Shown: piece after piece, positions 40,404-51,317 of the stretch
Position numbering within the stretch: the stretch's first letter is position 1
Layout of the letters: the number at the start of each line of letters is the position of its first letter
Assembly (NCBI RefSeq): GCF_030388325.1
Contig: NZ_CP103794.1
Span: 1,302,001-1,366,000, forward strand
Source of the DNA: Flavobacterium johnsoniae
GTDB taxonomy: Bacteria > Bacteroidota > Bacteroidia > Flavobacteriales > Flavobacteriaceae
Length of the DNA stretch: 64,000 bases
Direction of reading: 5' to 3'
The notes under the pieces: model-generated
The model's database searches: none
The model's input: the letters and a program-made list of their open reading frames with translations, nothing else
Told to the model about the DNA's origin: nothing
Program-made: the position numbers and the translations under genes

Positions 40404-42175
40404 ATGAGGCTGATAATCTCTTTTTTATTTTTCTTGATACTTAATACCGGTGTGGCTCAATCAAATAAGGAGCTATCCGAGCAGAAATATATAGAATTAC
40501 AAGATAAGATACGCTTCAGCATCAATGGAAATTACGATGAGGGTTTAACATTTGTTAAAGAATTGTTAAAGTCAAGTGATCCAGAACATTTGACGTTCGC
40601 TAGTGGAGCAGCTTCATATCTTTATCAATTAAAAGGTGATAGCATAAACTCAGATAAAAGCTATGCTCAGGCATTAATTCACCTTAAAAAAATTCCAGAA
40701 TCTAATAAGAAAATAAAAACTCATTCCTACTTATGTAATTTTCGTGGTCTTGTTTTTTGGAAAAGACATAATTACAGTCAGGCTTTAAGTGCTTATCAAG
40801 AAGGAATCAAACTTTCTTCTCAAATAAACGATGTCATACAGATGGTAAAGTTTAAAGCAAATATGGCTTTGATAAACGAAAGTGTTGGAAATTATCAGCT
40901 GTCGATCAAAATTTTAAAACAAAATGATGCTTTTTTAGATAAGAATGAAAACCTTTATGAGAAGGATCAATTTCAAAATGCAAAAAGCAATACTTATACC
41001 AATTTAGGAAATTCTTTTGAAGGCTATTATGGTAAAAATCGGGATAAAGCATATTTGTTAGATTCAGCAGAGTATTTCTACAAAAAGGCAATATCGTACT
41101 CAGAAAAATTTGAAGACAATAAAATTACTTCCAAATTAAGTTTAGGAAATATCTATTCATTTAAGAAAGACTTTAGTAATGCAGAAAAGATTTATTACGA
41201 TATAGCGATTTATGCAAAGCAAAGTAACAATGCTTTTTTATACCAAATTTCCAATTTTAATTTAGGCGATTTATATTTCACCTTAAAGAAATACGATCGA
41301 GCACTTATTTTTTTAAAGAAAGTAGATTCGATAAGTATCAAAAATAAGATGATGGATAATAGCTATTTTAAATCCAATTATCTTCAGGCAAAAATTTACA
41401 GCATCAAAAATGAACCTGAATTGGCTTATAAGCATTCTAAGTTATACTTAGATTCCTATGAAAAATATGAGGGAAATATGAGAGAAGAAGCTCTCGAAGT
41501 AAATTATAAGCTTGGTACGGCAGATCTTAGCGAAGAAATGTTAGATGTTCAGGAAAAGTATAAATATGAGGTTTTTTGGAATAAAGCGTTAAAAGTATTT
41601 TATGTAATTCTAGTTATCGGAATTGTTTTTTTCTTAATTAAAAGTATTCGAGATAAAAATAAAGCACATAAGAAAATGAATGCTTTGATTGAAGAATTTA
41701 AAGCTAATCTGGAGAAAAAAGAAATTGAAAATACTGAAATTGATAAAGTTGCAATTGAAGAAGTTTTTGCCGACGTACCAGAATTAGATGAAATTCAGCT
41801 TAAGAAAGAAAATGCAAATCTTAGCATTGATGAAGCAAAAGAAAATAAGATTGTAGAAAAGTTATTGGCATTAGAAGAAAAGTTAGAATATCTAAATGCC
41901 GATTTTACCCTTTCGTATGTTGCTAAGAAAATAAAAACAAATACTACGTATCTATCTTATGTAGTAAATAAAAGATTTGGAAAATCTTTTGGGGAATATT
42001 CTAATGAATTGAAAATAAATTATGTTATCAATCAGATGATTACAAATCATTTGTATCGTAAATATTCAACTCAGGCTATAGCAGAAAGTGTTGGTTTTAA
42101 AATGCAGTTTCATTTGCAAAATCATTTCGCAAAAGAACTGGAGTATCCCCAGCTCAATTTGCGAGTAATATTTAG
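40404..42175 (+). pseudogene. TPR-AraC membrane regulator, frameshifted near its C-terminus
   Basis: The protein has a signal peptide (MRLIISFLFFLILNTGVAQ), TPR-like repeats (about 30-370), one transmembrane segment (about 398-414, VFYVILVIGIVFFLIKSI) and a cytoplasmic AraC-type helix-turn-helix (about 490 onward: LEYLNADFTLSYVAKKIKTN, TYLSYVVNKRFGKSFGEYSN, STQAIAESVGFK). After GFK at 42099-42102 the running frame becomes non-homologous and continues to 42284. Shifting back one base restores NAVSFAKSFRKRTGVSPAQF, the family C-terminus, with a stop at 42173-42175. One A is thus missing from a four-A run. It adjoins the peptide locus and is a candidate regulator of it. Confidence 0.82.
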
Positions 42176-42188
42176 AACGTTTTTTGTC

Positions 42189-42344
42189 TTATGTATTTCC
42201 GTTTCCGCCGTTATTTTTTCCAGGATCTACTGGTGGTGGTGTTGGATTAGGAGTTTCTCCGTCACCGCCGCGAATCACTTTTAATTCAGTTGCCACTAAT
42301 TTTTCATTTTGGAAATTTTGGAAATTTGATTTAGGATTTTTCAT
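42189..42344 (-). CDS. Double-glycine leader peptide, tandem copy 1
   Basis: A 51-aa peptide, too short for many gene finders. The leader ends NEKLVATELKVIRGG (Gly-Gly at 26-27), followed by a Pro-rich core DGETPNPTPPPVDPGKNNGG then NGNT. It is the last of four tandem paralogues on this strand (transcription runs from 42999 to 42189). No Cys. The leader suggests cleavage by a C39 peptidase such as the exporter at 46134, or by an unlinked one. It resembles Bacteroidetes peptides that serve as substrates of radical-SAM systems, but no such enzyme is present here. Confidence 0.82.
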   Translation of the reverse strand: MKNPKSNFQNFQNEKLVATELKVIRGGDGETPNPTPPPVDPGKNNGGNGNT

Positions 42345-42409
42345 GATCTTATATTTTAATGTCTTTAGTAATTGATTTTTTGGATGCTTTAATATTAGGT
42401 AGAAATGGC

Positions 42410-42568
42410 CTATGTATTTCCGTTTCCGCCATTATTTTTCCCAGGATCTACTGATGGTGTTGTTGGATCTGCAGGAGTTTCTCCGTCACCGCCGCGAATC
42501 ACTTTTAATTCAGCTGCCACTAATTTTTCATTTTGGAAATTTTGGAAATTTGATTTAGGATTTTTCAT
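42410..42568 (-). CDS. Double-glycine leader peptide, tandem copy 2
   Basis: A 52-aa paralogue of the 42189 gene. The leader is almost identical (MKNPKSNFQNFQNEKLVAAE then LKVIRGG) and the core is DGETPADPTTPSVDPGKNNG then GNGNT. It differs from copy 1 mainly in the Pro-rich middle of the core; the GKNNGGNGNT end is invariant. No Cys. It lies on a repeat unit of about 221-226 bases that includes the intergenic part. Confidence 0.82.
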   Translation of the reverse strand: MKNPKSNFQNFQNEKLVAAELKVIRGGDGETPADPTTPSVDPGKNNGGNGNT

Positions 42569-42635
42569 GATGCTTATATTTTAATGTCTTTAGTAATTGA
42601 TTTTTTGGATGCTTTATATATTAGGTAGAAATGGC

Positions 42636-42794
42636 CTATGTATTTCCGTTTCCGCCATTATTTTTTCCAGGATCTACTGGTGGTGTTGTTGGATCTGCAG
42701 GAGTTTCTCCGTCACCGCCACGAATTACTTTTAATTCAGTTGCCACTAATTTTTCATTTTGGAAATCTTCGAAATTTGCTTTATAATTTTTCAT
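42636..42794 (-). CDS. Double-glycine leader peptide, tandem copy 3
   Basis: A 52-aa paralogue. The leader starts MKNYKANFEDFQNEKLVATE and ends LKVIRGG, with core DGETPADPTTPPVDPGKNNG then GNGNT. Substitutions against the other copies are mostly in the first ten residues of the leader, while the VIRGGDGETP junction is unchanged. This indicates selection for cleavage and for the core. Confidence 0.82.
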   Translation of the reverse strand: MKNYKANFEDFQNEKLVATELKVIRGGDGETPADPTTPPVDPGKNNGGNGNT

Positions 42795-42861
42795 GATGCT
42801 TATATTTTAATGTCTTAATAATTGATTTTTTTGGATGCTTTGTATATTAGGTGGAAATTAT

Positions 42862-42999
42862 TTAGGTATTTCCGTTTCCGCCATTATTTTTCCCTGGATC
42901 TACAGGAGTCTCACCGTCACCGCCACGAATCACTTTTAATTCAGCTGTTACTAATTTTTCATTCTTGAAATCTTCGAAATTTGATTTAGGATTTTTCAT
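42862..42999 (-). CDS. Double-glycine leader peptide, tandem copy 4 (first in the array)
   Basis: A 45-aa paralogue, promoter-proximal. The leader is MKNPKSNFEDFKNEKLVTAE then LKVIRGG, and the core is DGETPVDPGKNNGGNGNT. It is seven residues shorter than copies 2 and 3 through loss of the (A/N)DPTTP segment, so the core keeps only the two conserved ends. No Cys. Confidence 0.82.
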   Translation of the reverse strand: MKNPKSNFEDFKNEKLVTAELKVIRGGDGETPVDPGKNNGGNGNT

Positions 43000-43581
43000 T
43001 TTCTTTTCTATTTTAGGTTATATTTTAATACAAATAATCTTTCATAAATATTTTTAAGCGATATTTAGAAATGCGATAAAATCGATAATTTTAAATTGGC
43101 TACGCTAAAATTTTTGGTTTATTTTGATTAAAAAAAGCTGTAAAATTGAACTTCTTTTATAAGTTAAATCTCACTTTGAAATGTTTGATTTTGCTTTTTT
43201 TGAGAGGTAATTTTGGTGCAATTAAGGGTCTTTTTTGATCACTTTTGGAGTTGTTTTTCATACTCTTCTGACCACTTTTTTTCTTTAAAATAATAGAGTT
43301 TTTATCGTTTCTTTTTCATGTTTTTTGATGTTTGAATTATTTCTATTCCAAAACTAGACAAAAACATAAACCGTTAATCGAAAAATGGCTTTCTGAGTTT
43401 TTTATTCAAAAAATAACAATGTAATTACTTGTATGTCAATAAATTAAAACAAGTACTATACTTGGTATAATTTATAAATTGTATGTGGTATAATTAATAA
43501 AATGTATGCACGTATGCGATATTTATCAATAAAAACCCCAATCTTTGCATTGTATTCATGATTTAAAAACGGTCGAAAACG
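43000..43581. other. AT-rich intergenic region between divergent peptide array and VKOR gene
   Basis: About 580 bases without a supportable gene. It must contain the divergent promoters of the peptide array (minus) and the VKOR gene (plus). I could not identify a convincing TAnnTTTG pair for either. The notable structure is the direct repeat at 43463-43508. Confidence 0.6.
43463..43508 (+). promoter_or_regulatory. Two 23-bp direct repeats upstream of the VKOR gene
   Basis: TGGTATAATTTATAAATTGT then ATG, and TGGTATAATTAATAAAATGT then ATG, lie head to tail with a 23-base period. Further GTATG words occur at 43431 and 43512. Direct repeats at about two helical turns suggest cooperative regulator binding 75-120 bases before the ATG. 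Confidence 0.5.
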
Positions 43582-45138
43582 ATGTTAAAACTGGTCCAAA
43601 AATTTCTTCAAATCAACAAATACTCAGACATAAAAAATGAGTTCAAGGATCTGTTTTTGTCTCATCCAAATTATCCAAGTTTATTTGCAATTACAGACTC
43701 GTTCGATTTGCTTTCTGTAGAGAACGCAGCGGTAAGAGTTTCGAAGGAACAAATTGTAGATCTGCCATCAAATTTTTTGGCCTATTTTAAAGATGAATTA
43801 ATTCTAGTCGAAAAGATTAAAAACGGTGTTCGAATTACAACGACAAAAAAAGGAAGCCAGAAATTATCTTATGATAAATTTCTTTTAGACTGGAACGGAG
43901 TAATTGTTGCCATTGAACCCAATAATGTTGTTGCAAGAGAAAATTTGAAAGTAGAATACAATTGGTTGAAATATTTCTTGCCACTTGTTCTTTTAATCGG
44001 ATTATCATTTTTCTATAACAGCTTTGATTTATTTAGCGGCTCATTTTTAATTACGTCGATAATTGGTTTAGTAGTGAGCATATTTATTGTTCAGCAGAAA
44101 TGGGGTGTTAAAAACACTGTAATTTCAAAATTTTGTAATTTAAGTTCTAACTCTTCTTGTCATTCAGTAATAAGTTTCAACGATGATATTGCAAATAAGT
44201 GGTTAAGTTTTTCAGATTTACCATTATTATTCTTTAGTGCAAGCATTATTGCCATTTTAATACAGCCATTAAATTCTGCCATTTTTGTTGGTTTTTTAAG
44301 TCTGTTGGCAATTCCATTGGTAGTTTGCTCTATTTGGATTCAAAAATTTGAAATTCAAAAATGGTGCGTTATGTGCTTAGCAGTATCATTCTTGATTTTA
44401 GTTCAGAGTGTAATATGGTTTTCATCAGACTTATTTACTTTGAGTTTTAGCTTAAATACAATTTTTCCTTATGTGTTTTCTTTATTGCTTTTGATTCCAA
44501 TTTGGGCAGCAGTAAAAGTGATGATTAAAAACATTTTGGATAATGAGAATTCATTAAAAGAACTTAAAAAGTTTAAAAGAAATTATTCTCTATTAAACTT
44601 CTTGTCTAAAAAAGTAAAATATACTAAAGGATTTGAAGAATTAAGAGGTCTAAATTTTGGAAATAAAAATGCAGTAGTAAGACTTTCAATAATTATAAGT
44701 CCAAGTTGCGGACATTGTTACAAAACATTTCAAGAAGCTTTTGATTTGGTATTGAAGTTTCCAGATAAAATATATTTAAACGTTCTTTTTAATATTAATC
44801 CAGAAAACAACGACAATCCATATAAAGCTGTTGTTGAGAGATTGTTAACCATAAATAGAATAACTCCAGGAAAAACTGTCGAAGCTATTTCTGATTGGTA
44901 CATTAAAAGAATGGTACACAAAAAATGGTTAAAAAAATGGTCTGTAGATTCTGTTAGTATGATGATCAGTCAGGAAATTCAAAAACAATACGATTGGTGT
45001 TCAATGAATAATTTTAATTATACACCAGTAAAAATTGTAAATGAAAGATTATTTCCTAACGAATATGAATTGAATGAATTAAAATATTTCTTGAATGATT
45101 TTGTTGATGAAGTTCAAGTTTTAGAAAAAACAGCCTAA
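43582..45138 (+). CDS. C39-like / VKOR / thioredoxin fusion protein (disulfide-forming)
   Basis: A 518-aa protein in three parts. Residues 1-115 resemble a C39 peptidase domain (HPNYPSLFAITDSFDLLSVE) but contain no Cys, so it is inactive and may bind leader peptides. Residues about 130-315 are a vitamin K epoxide reductase-type membrane domain with Cys185 and Cys193 in KFCNLSSNSSCHSV and the active CxxC in EIQKWCVMCLAVSF (262, 265). Residues 330-518 are a thioredoxin-fold domain with ISPSCGHCYKTF (376-379) and a cis-Pro candidate (TPVKIV). VKOR/Trx pairs make disulfides in secreted proteins. The next three genes encode Cys-bearing double-glycine peptides, their likely substrates. Confidence 0.88.
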   Translation: MLKLVQKFLQINKYSDIKNEFKDLFLSHPNYPSLFAITDSFDLLSVENAAVRVSKEQIVDLPSNFLAYFKDELILVEKIKNGVRITTTKKGSQKLSYDKFLLDWNGVIVAIEPNNVVARENLKVEYNWLKYFLPLVLLIGLSFFYNSFDLFSGSFLITSIIGLVVSIFIVQQKWGVKNTVISKFCNLSSNSSCHSVISFNDDIANKWLSFSDLPLLFFSASIIAILIQPLNSAIFVGFLSLLAIPLVVCSIWIQKFEIQKWCVMCLAVSFLILVQSVIWFSSDLFTLSFSLNTIFPYVFSLLLLIPIWAAVKVMIKNILDNENSLKELKKFKRNYSLLNFLSKKVKYTKGFEELRGLNFGNKNAVVRLSIIISPSCGHCYKTFQEAFDLVLKFPDKIYLNVLFNINPENNDNPYKAVVERLLTINRITPGKTVEAISDWYIKRMVHKKWLKKWSVDSVSMMISQEIQKQYDWCSMNNFNYTPVKIVNERLFPNEYELNELKYFLNDFVDEVQVLEKTA

Positions 45139-45173
45139 AATTAAAACAATAATAACCCCAAAAACCTGCAGTT

Positions 45174-45356
45174 ATGTTAAAGAATATTTTGAAATTGAAA
45201 GGTGCAGTAGAATTGACTGCGAGTGAGCAAAAAACAATAAACGGAGGAAATGCTCCTATTTGTGATGACGGATTTAAAGCTAAAAGATGTACAGAATTTG
45301 GAACTGTTCCGGCATATTGGAGCTGCTTACCAAATAGCTACGTTGGAAGCTGTTAG
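45174..45356 (+). CDS. Cys-containing double-glycine peptide, 4 Cys
   Basis: A 60-aa precursor. Leader MLKNILKLKGAVELTASEQK then TINGG (Gly-Gly at 24-25); core NAPICDDGFKAKRCTEFGTV then PAYWSCLPNSYVGSC, with Cys at 30, 39, 51 and 60. The leader is of the bacteriocin/ComC type processed by C39 peptidases. It lies 35 bases after the VKOR gene, so it is probably co-transcribed and forms two disulfides. Confidence 0.88.
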   Translation: MLKNILKLKGAVELTASEQKTINGGNAPICDDGFKAKRCTEFGTVPAYWSCLPNSYVGSC

Positions 45357-45428
45357 CAGAAAAAAAAACTCAAGCATCAAGTTTTTACAGATTTGAGGCT
45401 TAAACCCAGAAAACGTAAATAACCAGTT

Positions 45429-45560
45429 ATGTTAGAAAAAATTTTAAAAAGTAAAGAGACAAAAAAGCTGACAAAAAAAGAGCAGAAAAACATTTTAGGT
45501 GGCGAATCATCGGAACCAAATTGTTACAATGCCACAGCTGATAAATTTTATGCTTGCTAA
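45429..45560 (+). CDS. Cys-containing double-glycine peptide, 2 Cys (43 aa)
   Basis: A 43-aa precursor easily missed by length cut-offs. Leader MLEKILKSKETKKLTKKEQK then NILGG (Gly-Gly at 24-25, the same register as its neighbours); core ESSEPNCYNATADKFYAC, with Cys at 32 and 43. One disulfide would close a ten-residue loop. It is 72 bases after the 45174 gene and 63 before the 45624 gene. Confidence 0.85.
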   Translation: MLEKILKSKETKKLTKKEQKNILGGESSEPNCYNATADKFYAC

Positions 45561-45623
45561 TTTGAATATTTAAATAGTAACAGAGTTAAAAGCTCTGTTA
45601 CTATTAAAAAAAGGGTATTAGTT

Positions 45624-45815
45624 ATGTTGAAAAAAATTTTAAGTCTTAAAGATGCTCACACTATTAATAAAAGTGAGCAGAAAACCATAAAAGGAGGAAT
45701 TCCTCAATGTTGGGTTTACGCCTTAGAAGCGGGATGCATTTTAATATCATCAGGCGAAACTTGTCCAAAAAATACAGTATCTGGTATTTGTGATACAAGT
45801 CGTCTTTGTTGTTGA
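45624..45815 (+). CDS. Cys-containing double-glycine peptide, 6 Cys
   Basis: A 63-aa precursor. Leader MLKKILSLKDAHTINKSEQK then TIKGG (Gly-Gly at 24-25); core IPQCWVYALEAGCILISSGE then TCPKNTVSGICDTSRLCC, with Cys at 29, 38, 47, 56, 62 and 63, enough for three disulfides. It is the last of the three plus-strand peptides; a structured RNA-like region and a terminator follow. Confidence 0.88.
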   Translation: MLKKILSLKDAHTINKSEQKTIKGGIPQCWVYALEAGCILISSGETCPKNTVSGICDTSRLCC

Positions 45816-45889
45816 TTTTTTAACTTTTTTAGAGTAATACGATATAGCCTTATTTAGAATTTAGTCATGTTTTTTTTGAATGTATAGGC

Positions 45890-46081
45890 GCTCGATCGTG
45901 GAACATTGAGCATTTTCTTAGTATTGATGATTGGTACTAAGATTCTTAGGAGTTGGCCGCTGTGTTTAATTTTAATTGGTTAGGGTAAAACCGCGGCCAT
46001 GTCCTAAAGAAATTGTGTTGCTAGAAAATTTGTTTATGAATAGCCAAACAGAGAAGATTTATGTCTTCTCTGTTTTTTTTT
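45890..46081 (+). ncRNA. Candidate structured RNA ending in a Rho-independent terminator
   Basis: Four successive hairpins lie in a non-coding gap. The first is GCTCGAT / ATTGAGC (45890-45911, one G-U pair). The second is CTTAGTA / TACTAAG (45917-45941). The third is a long two-part stem, TTAGGA + TGGCCGC pairing with GCGGCCA + TCCTAA (45946-46007, with a two-base internal loop). The fourth is a terminator hairpin (46047-46081). The GC-rich third stem is striking in this AT-rich region. It could be a small RNA or the structured 3' UTR of the peptide transcript; no Rfam family can be assigned by eye. Confidence 0.5.
46047..46081 (+). terminator. Terminator between peptide genes and exporter
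   Basis: AAACAGAGAAGA and TCTTCTCTGTTT form a 12-bp hairpin around TTTATG, followed by a T run. It separates the VKOR/peptide transcript from the exporter genes. Confidence 0.85.
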
Positions 46082-46133
46082 ATGGATTAACAAGATTTTT
46101 TTTTCTTAAATTGCTCGTGAAAATCAAAATAAA

Positions 46134-48326
46134 TTGAAAAAATTCATTCATTACAGACAAGCTGATAATAAAGATTGTGGGCCTACTTGTTTAAAAATTA
46201 TAGCTAAATATTACGGCAAAACAATCAATATTCAGGAGTTGCGAGATTTTAGCGAAACAACTCGTGAAGGAAGTAATCTGCTTTTTTTGAGTGATGCCGC
46301 CGAAAAAATTGGTTTTAGAACTTTAGGCGTAAAATTGTCTGTAACAAGAATTGAAGAAGCGCCTCTTCCGTGTATTCTTCATTGGAATAAAGATCATTAT
46401 GTTGTTCTTTATAAAATAAAAAAAGGAAAATTCTACATATCAGATCCTGCGTTTGGACTTCTAGAATATAATAAAGAAGAATTTGTTAAGTTCTGGATTG
46501 GAAATAATGCAGATGATGAAACAAAAGAAGGAATCGCACTTTTAATAGAAGCAACACCAAATTTCTTTCAATCTGATTTTGATAAAGAAGAAAATTCAGG
46601 TTTAGGTTTTAGATTTCTTTCGCAGTATTTATTTCAATATAAATCTTTTTTAATTCAATTGGCAATTGGTCTTCTTGCCAGCAGTTTGCTGAATCTTATT
46701 TTTCCATTCTTGACTCAGAGTATTGTCGATGTCGGAATCCAGAATCAGAATATTAATTTTATCTATCTAATTCTTTTTGCAATGCTTTTTATTTTTGCCG
46801 GAAGAACAGGTTTAGAATTAATCAGAAGCTGGATTTTACTTCATCTGTCCACAAGAATTAATATTTCGCTGATTTCAGATTTCTTTATAAAATTAATGAA
46901 TCTGCCGATTTCCTTTTTCGATGTCCGAATGACGGGAGATATTATGCAGCGAATAAATGATCATCGAAGAATCGAAAAAATTCTTACTACATCTTCTTTA
47001 AATGTGCTTTTTTCTGTAATTAATATGTTTGTCATGGGCGCAGTTCTGGCTTATTTTAACTTGCAGATATTTTTAGTGTTTTTTCTGGGAAGTTTCTTCT
47101 ATTTCGGATGGATTACTTTGTTTTTAAAAAGAAGAGAAGTATTAGATTATAAGCGTTTTGCTGAAGTTTCTAATGAGCAAAATAAGGTTATGGAACTTAT
47201 AAACGGAATGCAGGAAATAAAACTCCACAACGCAGAAAAACAAAAACGCTGGGGGTGGGAATATGTGCAGGCAAGACTTTTTAGAGTTTCGATAAAAGGT
47301 TTGGTTTTAGAACAATCTCAGACAATTGGCTCTTCTGTAATTAACGAATTAAAAAATATTTTCATCATTCTTCTTTCTGCCAAGTTAGTAATAGAAGGTT
47401 CTATTACGCTGGGTATGATGCTTGCTATAAGTGCTATTGTAGGAAGTTTAAATGGTCCAATTACACAATTAATAGAGTTTGTAAGAGAATTGCAAGATGC
47501 CAAAATTTCGCTTGCTAGATTGTCTGAAATTCATCAAAAAGAAGATGAATTGCAGCAAGAAGCTCATCAGACAAATGAAATTCCGCATGATGCTGATATT
47601 GAAATTAAAAATCTTTCTTACCGATATTTAGGCTCAGATACTCCAGTTTTAGACAATTTGAATCTAGTAATTCCAGCCAATAAAGTAACCGCAATTGTTG
47701 GTGTTAGCGGAAGCGGAAAAACAACTTTGATGAAACTGCTTTTAAAATTTTACGAACCCGAAAAAGGAGAAGTTACAATTGGAAATGCACAACTAAAAAA
47801 TATTTCTCAAAAAGCTTGGAGATCAAATATTGGAGCCGTGATGCAGGAAGGATTTATTTTTAGCGATACAATTGCCAATAATATTGCTTTTGGAACAGAT
47901 AGAATTGATAAAGAAAGATTGGTTTATGCCGCAGATGTTGCCAATATTAAAGAATATATAAGTGGATTGCCTCTTGGATTTAATACAAAAATAGGTGCTG
48001 AAGGATTAGGAATGAGTACGGGACAAAAACAACGTTTGCTTATTGCGAGAGCGGTTTATAAAAATCCGGAAATTTTGTTTTTTGATGAAGCGACATCGGC
48101 TTTAGATGCCAATAATGAGAAAGAAATTATGAAAAAACTCGATGTTTTTTTCAAAGATAAAACAGTAGTTGTAATTGCACATAGATTGAGTACGGTTATG
48201 AATGCAGATCAGATTGTGGTTTTAGATAAAGGTAAAATTATCGAAATGGGGAGCCACTCTGCATTGGTAGCACAAAAAGGAAATTATTTTGAACTGGTTA
48301 GAAATCAATTACAATTAGGGAATTAA
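46134..48326 (+). CDS. Peptidase-containing ABC transporter (C39, bacteriocin exporter type)
   Basis: A 730-aa exporter that cleaves double-glycine leaders and pumps the core peptide. The N-terminal C39 peptidase has Cys15 in ADNKDCGPTCLKIIAKYYG, His88 in WNKDHYVVLY and Asp104 in YISDPAFGLL. About six transmembrane segments follow (165-430). The ATPase has Walker A GVSGSGKTTLMK (about 523), signature MSTGQKQRLLIARA, Walker B EILFFDEATSALD and switch VIAHRLS. The start is TTG 46134; no in-frame ATG lies upstream of the Cys motif. The HlyD adaptor follows two bases later, and Cys-bearing peptide genes precede it. Confidence 0.94.
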   Translation: MKKFIHYRQADNKDCGPTCLKIIAKYYGKTINIQELRDFSETTREGSNLLFLSDAAEKIGFRTLGVKLSVTRIEEAPLPCILHWNKDHYVVLYKIKKGKFYISDPAFGLLEYNKEEFVKFWIGNNADDETKEGIALLIEATPNFFQSDFDKEENSGLGFRFLSQYLFQYKSFLIQLAIGLLASSLLNLIFPFLTQSIVDVGIQNQNINFIYLILFAMLFIFAGRTGLELIRSWILLHLSTRINISLISDFFIKLMNLPISFFDVRMTGDIMQRINDHRRIEKILTTSSLNVLFSVINMFVMGAVLAYFNLQIFLVFFLGSFFYFGWITLFLKRREVLDYKRFAEVSNEQNKVMELINGMQEIKLHNAEKQKRWGWEYVQARLFRVSIKGLVLEQSQTIGSSVINELKNIFIILLSAKLVIEGSITLGMMLAISAIVGSLNGPITQLIEFVRELQDAKISLARLSEIHQKEDELQQEAHQTNEIPHDADIEIKNLSYRYLGSDTPVLDNLNLVIPANKVTAIVGVSGSGKTTLMKLLLKFYEPEKGEVTIGNAQLKNISQKAWRSNIGAVMQEGFIFSDTIANNIAFGTDRIDKERLVYAADVANIKEYISGLPLGFNTKIGAEGLGMSTGQKQRLLIARAVYKNPEILFFDEATSALDANNEKEIMKKLDVFFKDKTVVVIAHRLSTVMNADQIVVLDKGKIIEMGSHSALVAQKGNYFELVRNQLQLGN

Positions 48327-48328
48327 TC

Positions 48329-49618
48329 ATGAACGAAGATACATTTGAATTAAGGAGCGAAGAGGTTCAGGACATTTTGACCAAAGTACCACATTGGATG
48401 ATTCGATGGGGAACGGTTTTGATATTTGCCATTATCGTGATGCTGTTTTTTGTTTCTTGGTTTGTAAAATATCCAGATGTTGTTAAAACAGAAATTGTAA
48501 TTACAACCAATATTCCGCCAGAGAGAATTGTTTCAAAATCTTCTGGTCGTATAGAAGCTATTTTAGTTAAAGATAAAACGCCTGTTGCAAAAAACAGTAC
48601 GCTTGCAATTATTGAAAATACAGCGAATTACAGAGATGTTTTTCTGCTTAAAAGCATTGTGGACAGTTACGATATTAATAATTCGAAAAAAGCTTTTCCT
48701 TTTGAATCACTAAAAAATAAACAATTAGGAGAAATTGAAAGTGCTTTTGCTGTTTTTCAAAAAGATTATCAAGCACAGCAATTGAATGAAAGTCTGCATC
48801 CTTTTGAAATTGAAAGTATAGCGCAAAGCTCTGAGAAAATTCAGCTTAAAGAAAGATTGGATATTCTTCAGCAACAAAAAGTGCTGAACGAAAGCGAACT
48901 CCAATTACAGAAAAATGAAATTGCACGATTTGAAACATTATTCAATAAAGGCATTATTTCTGCTCAAGAAATGGAAGCTAAAAAATTGGGATATCTTCAG
49001 GCAATGAAGAGCTATAAAGGACTTTTAACTTCGATTTCTCAAATAAAATCTTCGTTGATTGATAATACTAAATCAAGTCAAAATTCGCAGATAAATAGCA
49101 CAAAAGAAGAAGTTAATCTAGGTAGAAGCATGGCGCAATCTTTTTATCAGTTAAAAAAAGTTATAAAAGATTGGGAACTGACTTATACATTAAAATCTTC
49201 TGTTAGCGGTGTAGTTACTTTTTTGCAGGTTTGGAATGAAAATCAAACTATTAATGTGGGAGATAATGTTTTTTCGATAATTCCCGATGCAAAAAATACG
49301 TTTATAGGAAAAGTGAAAGCTCCGGCTTTAAATTCAGGAAAAATAAAAGTAGGGCAACGTGTTAATATTCGTCTCGCAAATTATCCAGATAGAGAATTTG
49401 GCGTTCTAAAAGGGGAGATTAAAAATATTTCTTTAGTGCCAGACAAAGACGGAAATCTGTTGGTAGATGTTGCTCTTCCAAACGGATTAAAAACTTCTTA
49501 TGATAAGCAAATTGTTTTTCAGCAGGAAATGAAAGGAAGCGCAGAAATTGTAACCGAAGATCTGCGATTAATTGAAAGAATTTTGTATCAGTTTAAAAAT
49601 ATTTTTGAACAAGTTTAA
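48329..49618 (+). CDS. HlyD family secretion adaptor
   Basis: A 429-aa membrane fusion protein with one N-terminal transmembrane segment (about 30-48, VLIFAIIVMLFFVSWFV). A split lipoyl domain (SKSSGRIEAILVKDKTPVAK; later LKSSVSGVVTFLQVWNENQT) flanks a long coiled coil (about 110-270). A beta-barrel follows (IGKVKAPALNSGKIKVGQRV, NIRLANYPDREFG). It starts two bases after the C39 exporter stop and links that exporter to an outer-membrane channel, which is not encoded here. Confidence 0.93.
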   Translation: MNEDTFELRSEEVQDILTKVPHWMIRWGTVLIFAIIVMLFFVSWFVKYPDVVKTEIVITTNIPPERIVSKSSGRIEAILVKDKTPVAKNSTLAIIENTANYRDVFLLKSIVDSYDINNSKKAFPFESLKNKQLGEIESAFAVFQKDYQAQQLNESLHPFEIESIAQSSEKIQLKERLDILQQQKVLNESELQLQKNEIARFETLFNKGIISAQEMEAKKLGYLQAMKSYKGLLTSISQIKSSLIDNTKSSQNSQINSTKEEVNLGRSMAQSFYQLKKVIKDWELTYTLKSSVSGVVTFLQVWNENQTINVGDNVFSIIPDAKNTFIGKVKAPALNSGKIKVGQRVNIRLANYPDREFGVLKGEIKNISLVPDKDGNLLVDVALPNGLKTSYDKQIVFQQEMKGSAEIVTEDLRLIERILYQFKNIFEQV

Positions 49619-49661: not shown

Positions 49662-51317
49662 ATGAAAAAACTTCTACTCGTTGCTATTCTTTTATTTTTT
49701 CAAAATTCATTTTCAAAACCAATAAACGAAACCCAAAAACTTGCCGCCACTTGTAAAGTTTGGGGATTTTTGAAATATTATCATCCTAATGTGACAGATG
49801 GAAGTAAAAATTGGGATGAACAACTCTTTCAAATTCTTCCAAAAGTTGAAGAAGCTCAAACCTCTGAAGCATTTTCTTTAGTAATAGAAAATTGGATTGC
49901 TTCTTTGGGAGAAATAAAGCCTTATAAAACGGTTGCGTCTGAAAAAAAGAAGGACTATTTTAATAAAAACTTCGATTTATCATGGATTTCTAATAAAGAA
50001 TTGTTTTCTAAAACACTTTCTAAAAAATTAAAATTTATCGAAGAAAACAGGATTCAGAATAAACAATTTTATATCCAATTTACAGAAGATGATGAAAAGG
50101 GAGTTTTTGAAGAAATTACGAATGAAATAGTTTATCCGGATTTTGTGTGGACTAATAAAAACCTGAGAATTTTAACTTTGTTTAGATATTGGAATTATGT
50201 AGAATATTTCTTTCCCTACAAATATCAAATGGATCAACATTGGGATAATTCTTTAAATGAAATGCTTCCCAAATTTATTAATCCTAAAGCAGAAGTTGAT
50301 TTTCATTTGGCAATGAAAGAGTTGATTGTAAAACTGGATGATTCGCATGGTTTTTTTGGAACGAAAGTTCTGTATTTAGATTTTTTTGGAAATAAATTCG
50401 TCCCTTTTGAAACGAAAATTATTGATGATAAAGCTATTGTTATAAGCTTAAAAAATGATTCTCTTGCAAAATTAAACGATATTAAGATTGGCGATGTTAT
50501 AACAAAAATTGATGGTAAAACCGTTGCTGAAATTTTAAAAGAAAAAATAAATTATATCGAAGGTTCTAATATTCCAACAGTTTTAAGAAATTCGAATACG
50601 GCTGTTTTTAATGGAAGTTCAAAAAATGCAGAAATTGAATATACAAGAGATGAGAAGACGGCTGTTAAATCTATAAACCGTTATGTTTATTTGGATATGA
50701 AGATAAAGCCTGAAGAGAAAGAAAAATGGAAACTTTTGGAAGGCAATATAGGCTATGTAAATTTTACTTCGCTTATGTATGATGATATTCCTGCTTTAAT
50801 CAAAAACTTAAATGATACAAAAGCTATAATTTTTGATAATCGCTGCTATCCTAATGGTGTGATGTCTGCAATCGCCGAGTGGATCAATTCTCAATCAAAA
50901 GATTTTGCGAGATTTACTTATCCAGATATCACTTATCCAGGGAAATTTTATTGGAGTAAAAATTTTGATATTGGAAGTGAAAATCCAAATCATTATAAAG
51001 GGAAAGTTATTGTTTTGGTAGATGAAAATACGCAAAGCCACGCAGAATTTACAGCAATGAGCATGAAAACGGCACCAGATGTTACAATAATAGGAAGCCA
51101 GACTGCTGGCGCTGATGGAAATGTTTGTAGGTTTCAGGTAATAAAAGGATTTTATACTGCATTTAGCGGAATAGGCGTTTTTTATCCAGATAAAAAAGAA
51201 ACCCAACGTATAGGAATCGTGCCTGATATTGAAGTAAAACCAACTATTTTAGGTATTCAGCAAGGAAAAGATGAGATTTTGGAAAGAGCGATTCTTTTTG
51301 CTAAAAACGGAAAATAA
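49662..51317 (+). CDS. S41 family peptidase, secreted
   Basis: A 551-aa periplasmic or surface serine peptidase with a signal peptide (MKKLLLVAILLFFQNSFS). An N-terminal helical domain (KLAATCKVWGFLKYYHPNVT) is followed by a PDZ-like region (LAKLNDIKIGDVITKIDGKT) and the tail-specific-protease catalytic domain (LLEGNIGYVNFTSLMYDDIP; Ser in VDENTQSHAEFTAMSM; GSQTAGADG). It is 43 bases after the HlyD gene and may belong to the peptide export unit, for example as a peptide-trimming or immunity-like protease (inference). A 62-codon remnant of a close paralogue lies at 23727. Confidence 0.9.
   Translation: MKKLLLVAILLFFQNSFSKPINETQKLAATCKVWGFLKYYHPNVTDGSKNWDEQLFQILPKVEEAQTSEAFSLVIENWIASLGEIKPYKTVASEKKKDYFNKNFDLSWISNKELFSKTLSKKLKFIEENRIQNKQFYIQFTEDDEKGVFEEITNEIVYPDFVWTNKNLRILTLFRYWNYVEYFFPYKYQMDQHWDNSLNEMLPKFINPKAEVDFHLAMKELIVKLDDSHGFFGTKVLYLDFFGNKFVPFETKIIDDKAIVISLKNDSLAKLNDIKIGDVITKIDGKTVAEILKEKINYIEGSNIPTVLRNSNTAVFNGSSKNAEIEYTRDEKTAVKSINRYVYLDMKIKPEEKEKWKLLEGNIGYVNFTSLMYDDIPALIKNLNDTKAIIFDNRCYPNGVMSAIAEWINSQSKDFARFTYPDITYPGKFYWSKNFDIGSENPNHYKGKVIVLVDENTQSHAEFTAMSMKTAPDVTIIGSQTAGADGNVCRFQVIKGFYTAFSGIGVFYPDKKETQRIGIVPDIEVKPTILGIQQGKDEILERAILFAKNGK

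Follow-up and report, generated by a model that had tools for sequence, protein, structure and literature searches.

Organization of the locus

The 64,000-nucleotide window analysed here (positions 1,302,001 to 1,366,000 of contig NZ_CP103794.1, Flavobacterium johnsoniae) belongs to a 5.32-Mb single-contig Flavobacterium genome and carries a locus for small peptides with double-glycine (GG) leaders. Four GG peptides without cysteine are encoded on the minus strand; on the plus strand lie three GG peptides with cysteines, a fusion of a C39-like domain that lacks the catalytic cysteine (pseudo-C39) with a vitamin K epoxide reductase (VKOR) domain and a thioredoxin domain, a C39 exporter of the ATP-binding cassette (ABC) type, and an HlyD adaptor. 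A sequence-only reading had named these genes and confined the locus to 42189..49618; the seven peptides, fusion, exporter and HlyD were all found at the coordinates it gave, but its interval was too narrow, as the regulator gene at 40404 is part of the locus. The features are as follows.

40404..42150, plus strand: transmembrane (TM) regulator with tetratricopeptide repeats (TPR) and an AraC-type helix-turn-helix (HTH) domain; TPR and HTH by Pfam, TPR superhelix by AlphaFold, signal peptide and TM segment by eye
42189..42344, minus strand: Cys-less GG peptide 1, 51 aa, from the open reading frame (ORF) listing; the class tracks the regulator
42410..42568, minus strand: Cys-less GG peptide 2, 52 aa, ORF listing
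42636..42794, minus strand: Cys-less GG peptide 3, 52 aa, ORF listing
42862..42999, minus strand: Cys-less GG peptide 4, 45 aa, ORF listing
43349..43356, minus strand: candidate -7 element of the peptide promoter, TAnnTTTG type, inside a block that is conserved across most of the 24 loci aligned
43466..43508, plus strand: candidate operator, two copies of TATAATTnATAAAnTGTATG, the pair present in 24 of 24 close regulator cassettes
43582..45138, plus strand: pseudo-C39/VKOR/thioredoxin fusion, 518 aa, by Pfam, alignment, AlphaFold and Foldseek
43678..43926, plus strand: C39-like domain of the fusion without the catalytic Cys, residues 33-115, PF03412 around its cut-off
44047..44412, plus strand: VKOR domain of the fusion, residues 156-277, with C185/C193 and C262-C265, PF07884 at 33.6 bits
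44644..45096, plus strand: DsbA/ScsC-like thioredoxin domain of the fusion, residues ~355-505, CGHC at 376-379, by Foldseek
45174..45356, plus strand: Cys GG peptide A, 60 aa, 4 Cys, ORF listing
45429..45560, plus strand: Cys GG peptide B, 43 aa, 2 Cys, ORF listing; PF14406 below cut-off
45624..45815, plus strand: Cys GG peptide C, 63 aa, 6 Cys, with close relatives in most site-orthologous loci
45842..46085, plus strand: candidate for a conserved structured RNA of ~180 nt, with a terminator-like hairpin after it, by covariation and model search
46134..48326, plus strand: C39 peptidase-containing ABC exporter, 730 aa, TTG start as listed, by Pfam
48329..49618, plus strand: HlyD-type periplasmic adaptor, 429 aa, by Pfam

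The exporter combines a C39 peptidase (117.4 bits), an ABC_membrane domain (99.0) and an ABC_tran domain (104.9) in one chain, all above their Pfam cut-offs, and is in this sense a peptidase-containing ABC transporter (PCAT); the DCGPTC near its N-terminus is what we take to be the C39 catalytic Cys motif. A six-frame search of the genome returned two C39 matches, the exporter and the fusion, and the exporter at 46134-48326 is the sole C39 exporter found. An S41-family peptidase gene at 49662-51317 follows HlyD; it is present in some orthologous loci only and is probably not part of the system.

Relatives of the fusion occur in 41 of 121 Flavobacterium genomes (E<=1e-10) and in 40 of the 299 genomes of a family-wide sample, in 37 of 236 genera (E<=1e-15). 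The locus occupies the same site in 24 genomes (L031-L054), preceded by an acyl-CoA dehydrogenase gene in all 24 and followed by a methyltransferase gene in 21, the latter not being seen in L034, L050 and L054. Its order is regulator (plus), one to eight minus-strand GG peptides, VKOR fusion (plus), Cys GG peptides (plus), exporter and HlyD. L052 and L054 had no Cys GG peptides called, in L054 the exporter and HlyD lie on the other side and strand, and a second VKOR gene stands before the exporter in L034 and L047.

The regulator and the Cys-less peptides

The regulator consists of an N-terminal signal peptide (judged by eye), TPR over residues 26-356, a TM segment at about 395-414, placed by eye inside a model helix spanning 375-438, and an AraC-type HTH. 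The TPR match exceeds its Pfam cut-off and the HTH_18 match falls below (27.2 versus 33.6). In the AlphaFold model the sensor is a TPR superhelix with a predicted local confidence (pLDDT) mostly near or above 90, and the best PDB matches of the sensor in Foldseek are peptide-binding TPR superhelices of LGN, several of them in complexes, with Bacillus RapI at rank 27; because TPR folds are common, these matches weigh little. The window copy departs in frame from its relatives at the HTH end (~42090-42284), where the ORF runs on to 42284 and 626 aa, and lacks the ending AQFA(S/N)N(I/L) found in 23 of the 23 other site-orthologous regulators; close relatives of ordinary length exist. The altered end may be either a sequencing or assembly error or a real loss that leaves a signal-blind strain. 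The HTH of the regulator in L243 also lies in another frame, and in L264, L265, L266 and L269 tandem regulator paralogues occur, one complete and one or two reduced to sensor and TM segment without HTH, which are possible decoy or partner receptors.

Regulator and minus-strand peptide occur together. Regulator relatives (E<=1e-20) were found in 33 of 121 Flavobacterium genomes, all 33 among the 41 with a VKOR fusion. Across 56 VKOR places, fragments included, both regulator and minus-strand GG peptide are present at 34, neither at 20, the regulator only at two and the peptide only at none (Fisher p 3e-13, relatedness ignored); at L058, one of the two regulator-only places, a minus-strand GG peptide lies on the regulator's other side. 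In 77 named loci with full upstream sequence, a set that overlaps the 56 places, 75 have both and two have neither, with no locus holding one alone. Secondary VKOR genes without a regulator (L034, L047, L061, L062) are also without a Cys-less peptide. Genome G061 carries two regulators away from VKOR (L172, L173), each with a convergent Cys-less GG peptide, and at L173 neither VKOR nor exporter lies within 15 kb.

Cysteine is absent from 79 of the 84 distinct minus-strand peptides at the 56 places (four have one, that of L068 has six) and from 194 of 204 in the named loci (ten have one). The cores, of which 183 were analysed, have a median of 20 residues, a mean grand average of hydropathy (GRAVY) of -1.36 and 10.5% ILMFWYV; because they are so hydrophilic, they do not look membrane-active. 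Copies within a locus are more alike than copies from different loci (0.57 in 56 loci versus 0.23 in 600 random pairs). A reading in which both peptide classes serve the disulfide enzyme is not supported: the minus-strand class has no thiols and is linked to the regulator rather than to VKOR, so that we rejected it as a VKOR client; it is better read as the putative signal of a regulatory module.

A tandem repeat of two copies of the operator sequence, 23 bp apart, occupies 43466-43508, in the region that separates the divergent units for peptides and VKOR, where an autoinduction loop would require it; its second copy starts about 93 bp before the VKOR start. With up to 3 mismatches allowed, the pair occurs once in the 5.3-Mb genome. 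In the 24 close regulator cassettes the better copy keeps 17-18 of 18 fixed bases and the other 15-18. A pair at 22-23 bp accompanies 8 of 11 distant regulator cassettes and 0 of 19 VKOR genes without a regulator (Fisher p 3e-5); each copy in the distant cassettes scores 12-15 of 18 against a shuffled maximum of 14-16, and it is the spacing that constitutes the evidence there, because single copies fall within the shuffled range. The operator is present in 72 of the 77 named loci. L296, L298 and L299 lack the consensus operator but not the regulator or the peptide, and L301 and L303 lack all three. The TAnnTTTG sequence at 43349..43356 may act as a -7 element of the peptide promoter.

The two classes of core also vary with different partners. 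Mean pairwise identity across the 24 orthologous loci is 62% for the sensor, 93% for the HTH, 80% for VKOR and 89% for the ABC exporter. Distance between Cys-less cores follows that between sensors when VKOR and ABC are controlled for (partial r 0.48, N 59 of the 75 named loci, p 0.002, the minimum possible with 499 permutations) and does not follow VKOR given the sensor (r 0.11, p 0.08). The reverse holds for the one Cys-core family tested, that beginning IP (N 38), which follows VKOR when the sensor is controlled for (r 0.67, p 0.002) but does not follow the sensor given VKOR and ABC (r -0.20, p 1.0). A pruned set of 35 gave r 0.50 (p 0.001) for Cys-less core against sensor. Leaders follow the sensor as well (r 0.38), and the linker (0.33) and HTH (0.22) of the regulator correlate with the core given VKOR and ABC, which is what linkage alone would give; the sensor term is still 0.38 (p 0.002) once linker and HTH are removed too. 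In an earlier 24-locus set, of which the 23 with ABC were tested, r was 0.30 for the sensor given VKOR, ABC and flank, and ABC given the sensor was also significant (r 0.24). Linkage and co-variation of peptide and receptor genes, as expected of peptide quorum sensing, are both seen for the Cys-less peptides and their putative receptor.

Distant relatives present a more varied picture. No credible GG peptides were found at 16 of 20 sampled loci of distant TPR-AraC proteins, and none was called beside L169 and L170, two of the three TPR-AraC paralogues of the window genome; we therefore rejected both the broad family as general peptide receptors and the own-genome paralogues as receptor-peptide pairs. 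Among the sampled loci, L205, L206 and L212 stand beside GG-peptide arrays and L215 beside one, and lone GG calls at L204 and L208 look like chance. The arrays of L205 (G314) and L206 (G481), two genomes from another genus of the family, are dense, with short GG-leader peptides of 0-3 Cys.

These distant loci, together with the co-variation of leaders, linker and HTH, would suit a different account, in which the locus secretes the Cys-less peptides as a second product, or they have an immunity or accessory function, and the regulator senses some other cue such as envelope stress; the effector part of the locus would be unchanged, and peptide and regulator would merely be neighbours. We regard this account as rather unlikely, since the peptide is nearly confined to loci with the regulator, even where VKOR and exporter are not nearby (L173), its core is unlike a membrane-active peptide, and the co-variation test gave a double dissociation between the two classes.

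The Cys peptides

The Cys peptides of the window have 25-residue leaders and cores of 35, 18 and 38 residues with 4, 2 and 6 Cys. Around VKOR in 51 fetched Flavobacteriaceae loci, the 147.6 kb just downstream hold 75 GG ORFs with at least two Cys, against three in the 227.3 kb that lie farther than 2.5 kb upstream. Of the 52 VKOR fusions from the family's other genera, 44 have such a peptide no farther away than 3 kb downstream or 2 kb upstream, so that the linkage on which the sequence-only reading had staked its proposal extends beyond Flavobacterium, and an ABC exporter of the same family lies within 6 kb of 33 of the 52. Among the distinct plus-strand cores encoded in the 6 kb that follow VKOR, 174 of 175 contain cysteine, and its number is even in 159 of these 174 (74 of 87 from other genera and 85 of 87 from Flavobacterium), a proportion for which a binomial p-value overstates independence because many cores are related. 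The 86 Cys cores analysed for composition have a median of 35 residues, a GRAVY of 0.11 and 26.9% ILMFWYV. In L055, VKOR and exporter are separated by 15 genes for Cys GG peptides, of which two are identical.

A label as ribosomally synthesized and post-translationally modified peptides of the TIGR04149/radical S-adenosylmethionine type was dismissed, since the seven window peptides score below the cut-offs of TIGR04149 and PF14406 (best 13.9 versus 25 and 19.9 versus 25) and no radical S-adenosylmethionine enzyme was found among the 14 locus proteins scanned.

It is somewhat unlikely, in our view, that the Cys peptides are not antibacterial and are instead secreted for a disulfide-requiring role in signalling, in the matrix or in metal binding. 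None of the three in the window passes a Pfam or NCBIfam cut-off, and no immunity gene was recognised among the locus ORFs, for which no systematic search was made; both observations would suit such a role. Several divergent Cys peptides per locus, up to the 15 genes of L055, argue against it, as do the bacteroidetocins, whose loci are likewise described as without obvious immunity genes (PMC6671954).

The VKOR fusion and its predicted topology

The fusion has the three domains, and the cysteine positions, that had been read from the sequence. Its VKOR domain belongs to PF07884, with 33.6 bits over residues 156-277 against a cut-off of 27.5 and four redox Cys. Peptidase_C39 matches residues 33-115 with 21.1 bits against a cut-off of 22 in the protein scan and with 23.8 bits, above the cut-off, in the six-frame search; PF03412 is also precomputed on fusion relatives P0094-P0096. 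Thioredoxin_4 matches weakly (14.6 versus 23.2), and Foldseek assigns ScsC, DsbA and BdbD folds to the thioredoxin domain of an AlphaFold model of moderate quality (pLDDT 75, predicted TM-score 0.43). The assignment to C39 rests mainly on Pfam, because the profile comparison with the exporter's own C39 was not significant (probability 0.6%) and the Foldseek matches to PCAT1 were weak (E 2e-4, TM-score 0.17). All 91 fusion relatives retain C185, C193, C262, C265, C376 and C379; within residues 1-135 any column holds Cys in at most nine of the 91, so that the C39-like domain has no conserved Cys.

Six hydrophobic segments, starting at 132, 152, 209, 233, 262 and 297, were found in the window fusion; since this number is even, the C39-like N-terminal part, the loop with C185/C193, the CxxC and the thioredoxin domain would all lie on one side. 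Lys and Arg near the membrane average 11.2 on this side and 1.1 on the other, and are more numerous on the active-site side in 91 of 91 fusions, the counts covering unequal spans of 61 and 28 columns. Of the 91 fusions, all have a net positive charge in the loop between the third and fourth segments, 85 in the stretch that follows the last segment and 60 in the C185/C193 loop. VKORs without C39, drawn from a phylum sample (a plasmid search gave only records that already held fusion relatives), gave 15 usable cases, of which 11 have the opposite charge bias around the CxxC, three are ties and one is contrary. On the basis of the six segments and the charge bias, we predict that the active sites and thioredoxin domain of the fusion are cytoplasmic, alongside the pseudo-C39 domain, and thus inverted with respect to canonical VKOR. 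A shared cytoplasmic side would favour the suggestion of the sequence-only reading that the core is oxidised before cleavage and export.

A canonical topology, with VKOR and thioredoxin facing the periplasm and the peptides oxidised there or after export, is unlikely by comparison; it would require the pseudo-C39 domain to be periplasmic too, or the first hydrophobic segment not to span the membrane. DsbA, the partner regenerated by bacterial DsbB or VKOR, is periplasmic as described in PMC11208910, and six segments are resolved at a simple threshold in just 50 of the 91 fusions (five in 31, four in eight, seven in one and three in one), the other 41 departing from six. No signal peptide is evident by eye on the C39-like domain, however, and the positive charge on the active-site side in every fusion, reversed in most C39-less VKORs, points the other way. 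A type I exporter also bypasses the periplasm, which agrees with the predicted cytoplasmic oxidation. Inverted VKOR and DsbB are mentioned as a means of disulfide formation in the cytoplasm of Escherichia coli (PMC5471842); if the prediction is true, a cytoplasmic VKOR acting on leader-tethered peptides would be a natural counterpart of such engineered systems.

A structured RNA before the exporter

An element of ~180 nt and a terminator-like hairpin lie between the last Cys peptide and the exporter. RNAalifold on 22 sequences gave 49 pairs, 14 of them with two-sided changes, including four in the hairpin. When the count is restricted to the element itself, 98.4% of cells pair and two-sided changes occur in 10 of 42 pairs, a number that none of 500 shuffles and no slid version reached; one helix is invariant. 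A search of 121 Flavobacterium genomes with a model of the element (R1) gave 25 copies, each near VKOR, in 24 genomes, which are precisely those with the site-orthologous locus; the best match of the model in 57 distant loci had an E of 0.23; an Rfam search gave chance-level matches only. The element is single-copy in the window genome and two copies occur in L242, L250 and L252. The obvious options for its role are a regulatory RNA of the circuit and an exporter leader.

A two-module interpretation

In the genomes compared, the locus splits into modules, regulator and operator are dedicated to it, sensor and Cys-less peptide co-vary, and the fusion carries its own charge and TM bias. We propose, with a probability of roughly 0.55, that an effector module for disulfide-bonded peptides is combined here with a signal module, a pheromone circuit built on the Cys-less peptides. 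The membrane fusion would use its protease-dead C39 domain to bind the leaders of the Cys precursors (45174-45815), and its VKOR and thioredoxin centres to oxidise their cores in the cytoplasm, with electrons passing to quinone. The C39 ABC exporter would then remove the leader and, together with HlyD and an outer-membrane channel encoded elsewhere, export disulfide-bonded, bacteriocin-like peptides that may be antibacterial. The short hydrophilic Cys-less peptides (42189-42999) may leave through the same exporter, the sole C39 exporter found in the genome, and could bind the periplasmic TPR domain of the regulator. Its HTH would act on the 23-bp tandem repeat at 43466-43508, and the direction of control that we infer is one leading to density-dependent expression.

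Several observations weigh against this interpretation, the support for which is entirely comparative. To reach a periplasmic sensor, a hydrophilic peptide must cross the outer membrane inwards or act before release. With the altered HTH end of its regulator, the window strain may be unresponsive. The counts are not independent, because most loci are orthologues from a single site, and, as described above, leaders co-vary with the sensor too while linker and HTH also correlate with the core. The minus-strand peptide of L068 has six Cys; in the family set, all three loci with a regulator relative near VKOR have an adjoining GG peptide, but it is Cys-less in L144 only, with three Cys in L147 and four in L148. 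To these are added the GG-free loci of distant TPR-AraC relatives, the operator copies of distant cassettes that score no better than the best shuffles, the three loci with regulator and peptide but no consensus operator, the unequal spans of the charge count, and the fusions in which six segments were not resolved.

More tentatively, and at somewhat less than an even chance, the locus may represent a Bacteroidota class of pheromone quorum sensing, in which GG signals are read by one-component receptors of periplasmic TPR, TM segment and AraC domain with hypervariable sensors; these would control a bacteriocin factory, its disulfides formed in the cytoplasm by an inverted VKOR with a leader-binding domain of its own, and a dedicated structured RNA would lie between the genes of factory and exporter.

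Relation to known systems

The nearest known system is that of the bacteroidetocins (class IIf), whose loci are described as encoding small GG peptides that contain two or more Cys, a C39 ABC transporter and, in most regions, a thiol oxidoreductase, deletion of which lowers toxin activity (PMC6671954). The window locus has the same three kinds of component, so the effector part has precedent, and a disulfide enzyme at a Bacteroidota GG-peptide locus is not in itself new. In that description the leaders have 15-16 residues, against 25-27 in the window locus, and bacteroidetocins A and B have mature peptides of 42 residues, a size and leader length that the window peptides do not share; each of the two characterised regions encodes one peptide and a separate five-TM protein, and HlyD goes unmentioned in the main text. 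The window locus encodes HlyD, has several Cys peptides instead of one, and includes a regulator accompanied by GG peptides without Cys. No gene for a five-TM protein was recognised among its ORFs, relatives of the bacteroidetocin protein not having been searched for.

The N-terminal domain of the fusion resembles the C39-like domain (CLD) of HlyB, which lacks the catalytic Cys and recruits substrates (PMC6363468). The window exporter is itself a PCAT, as in the PCAT/AMS group described there, and the dead C39 domain sits on a disulfide oxidase in the window locus and on an ABC transporter in HlyB. PedC and BrcD are named as disulfide accessory proteins of bacteriocins in PMC13289728. The likeness, as described, is a dedicated disulfide protein encoded with Cys bacteriocins. 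To our knowledge, these proteins have neither a VKOR nor a leader-binding domain. VKOR-thioredoxin fusions of the SynVKOR type have four redox Cys and a CxxC thioredoxin domain, both shared by the window fusion, which differs in its additional N-terminal C39-like domain, an additional TM segment, the reversed charge bias and its predicted cytoplasmic action.

Class II bacteriocins of Gram-positive bacteria are regulated by a GG pheromone and a receptor, and the RRNPP receptors (Rap and Rgg, of Xre HTH or Rap type) are cytoplasmic TPR proteins. The window locus is similar in that a GG-leader peptide lies beside the presumed receptor gene of a peptide operon, and in the TPR fold (the RapI match). 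The regulator is neither a histidine kinase nor a cytoplasmic TPR protein but a putative one-component TM receptor with a predicted periplasmic TPR and an AraC HTH, and only the TPR fold is shared with RRNPP proteins. Among the matches listed from Creative Commons-licensed papers in PMC, we recognised none on the fusion or on a TPR-AraC pheromone receptor.

Bacteroidetocin production may occur only at high density, and its regulation was left to future work (PMC8546649). To the wider questions of how peptide bacteriocins of Bacteroidota are regulated and exported, this locus brings a concrete candidate receptor, signal, operator and RNA in an aerobic, non-gut Flavobacterium; little is known in this bacterial group of exported-peptide signalling read by a dedicated membrane sensor.

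Other relatives of the fusion

The closest named fusion relatives are those of F. chungbukense, F. potami and F. notoginsengisoli (98%), and among the matches listed most relatives are called 'vitamin K epoxide reductase family protein', the remainder 'uncharacterized membrane protein', 'hypothetical protein' and similar. On pEMTOL01 of Emticicia oligotrophica (L084) a relative directly follows a histidine kinase and a LytTR protein and is accompanied by two Cys GG peptides, a TlpA-like protein, an exporter, HlyD and TolC. On a Parabacteroides distasonis plasmid (NZ_OY725766.1, L081) another lies by a TPR protein and a LanC-like protein, with glycosyltransferase-type proteins and a peptidase-domain ABC transporter.

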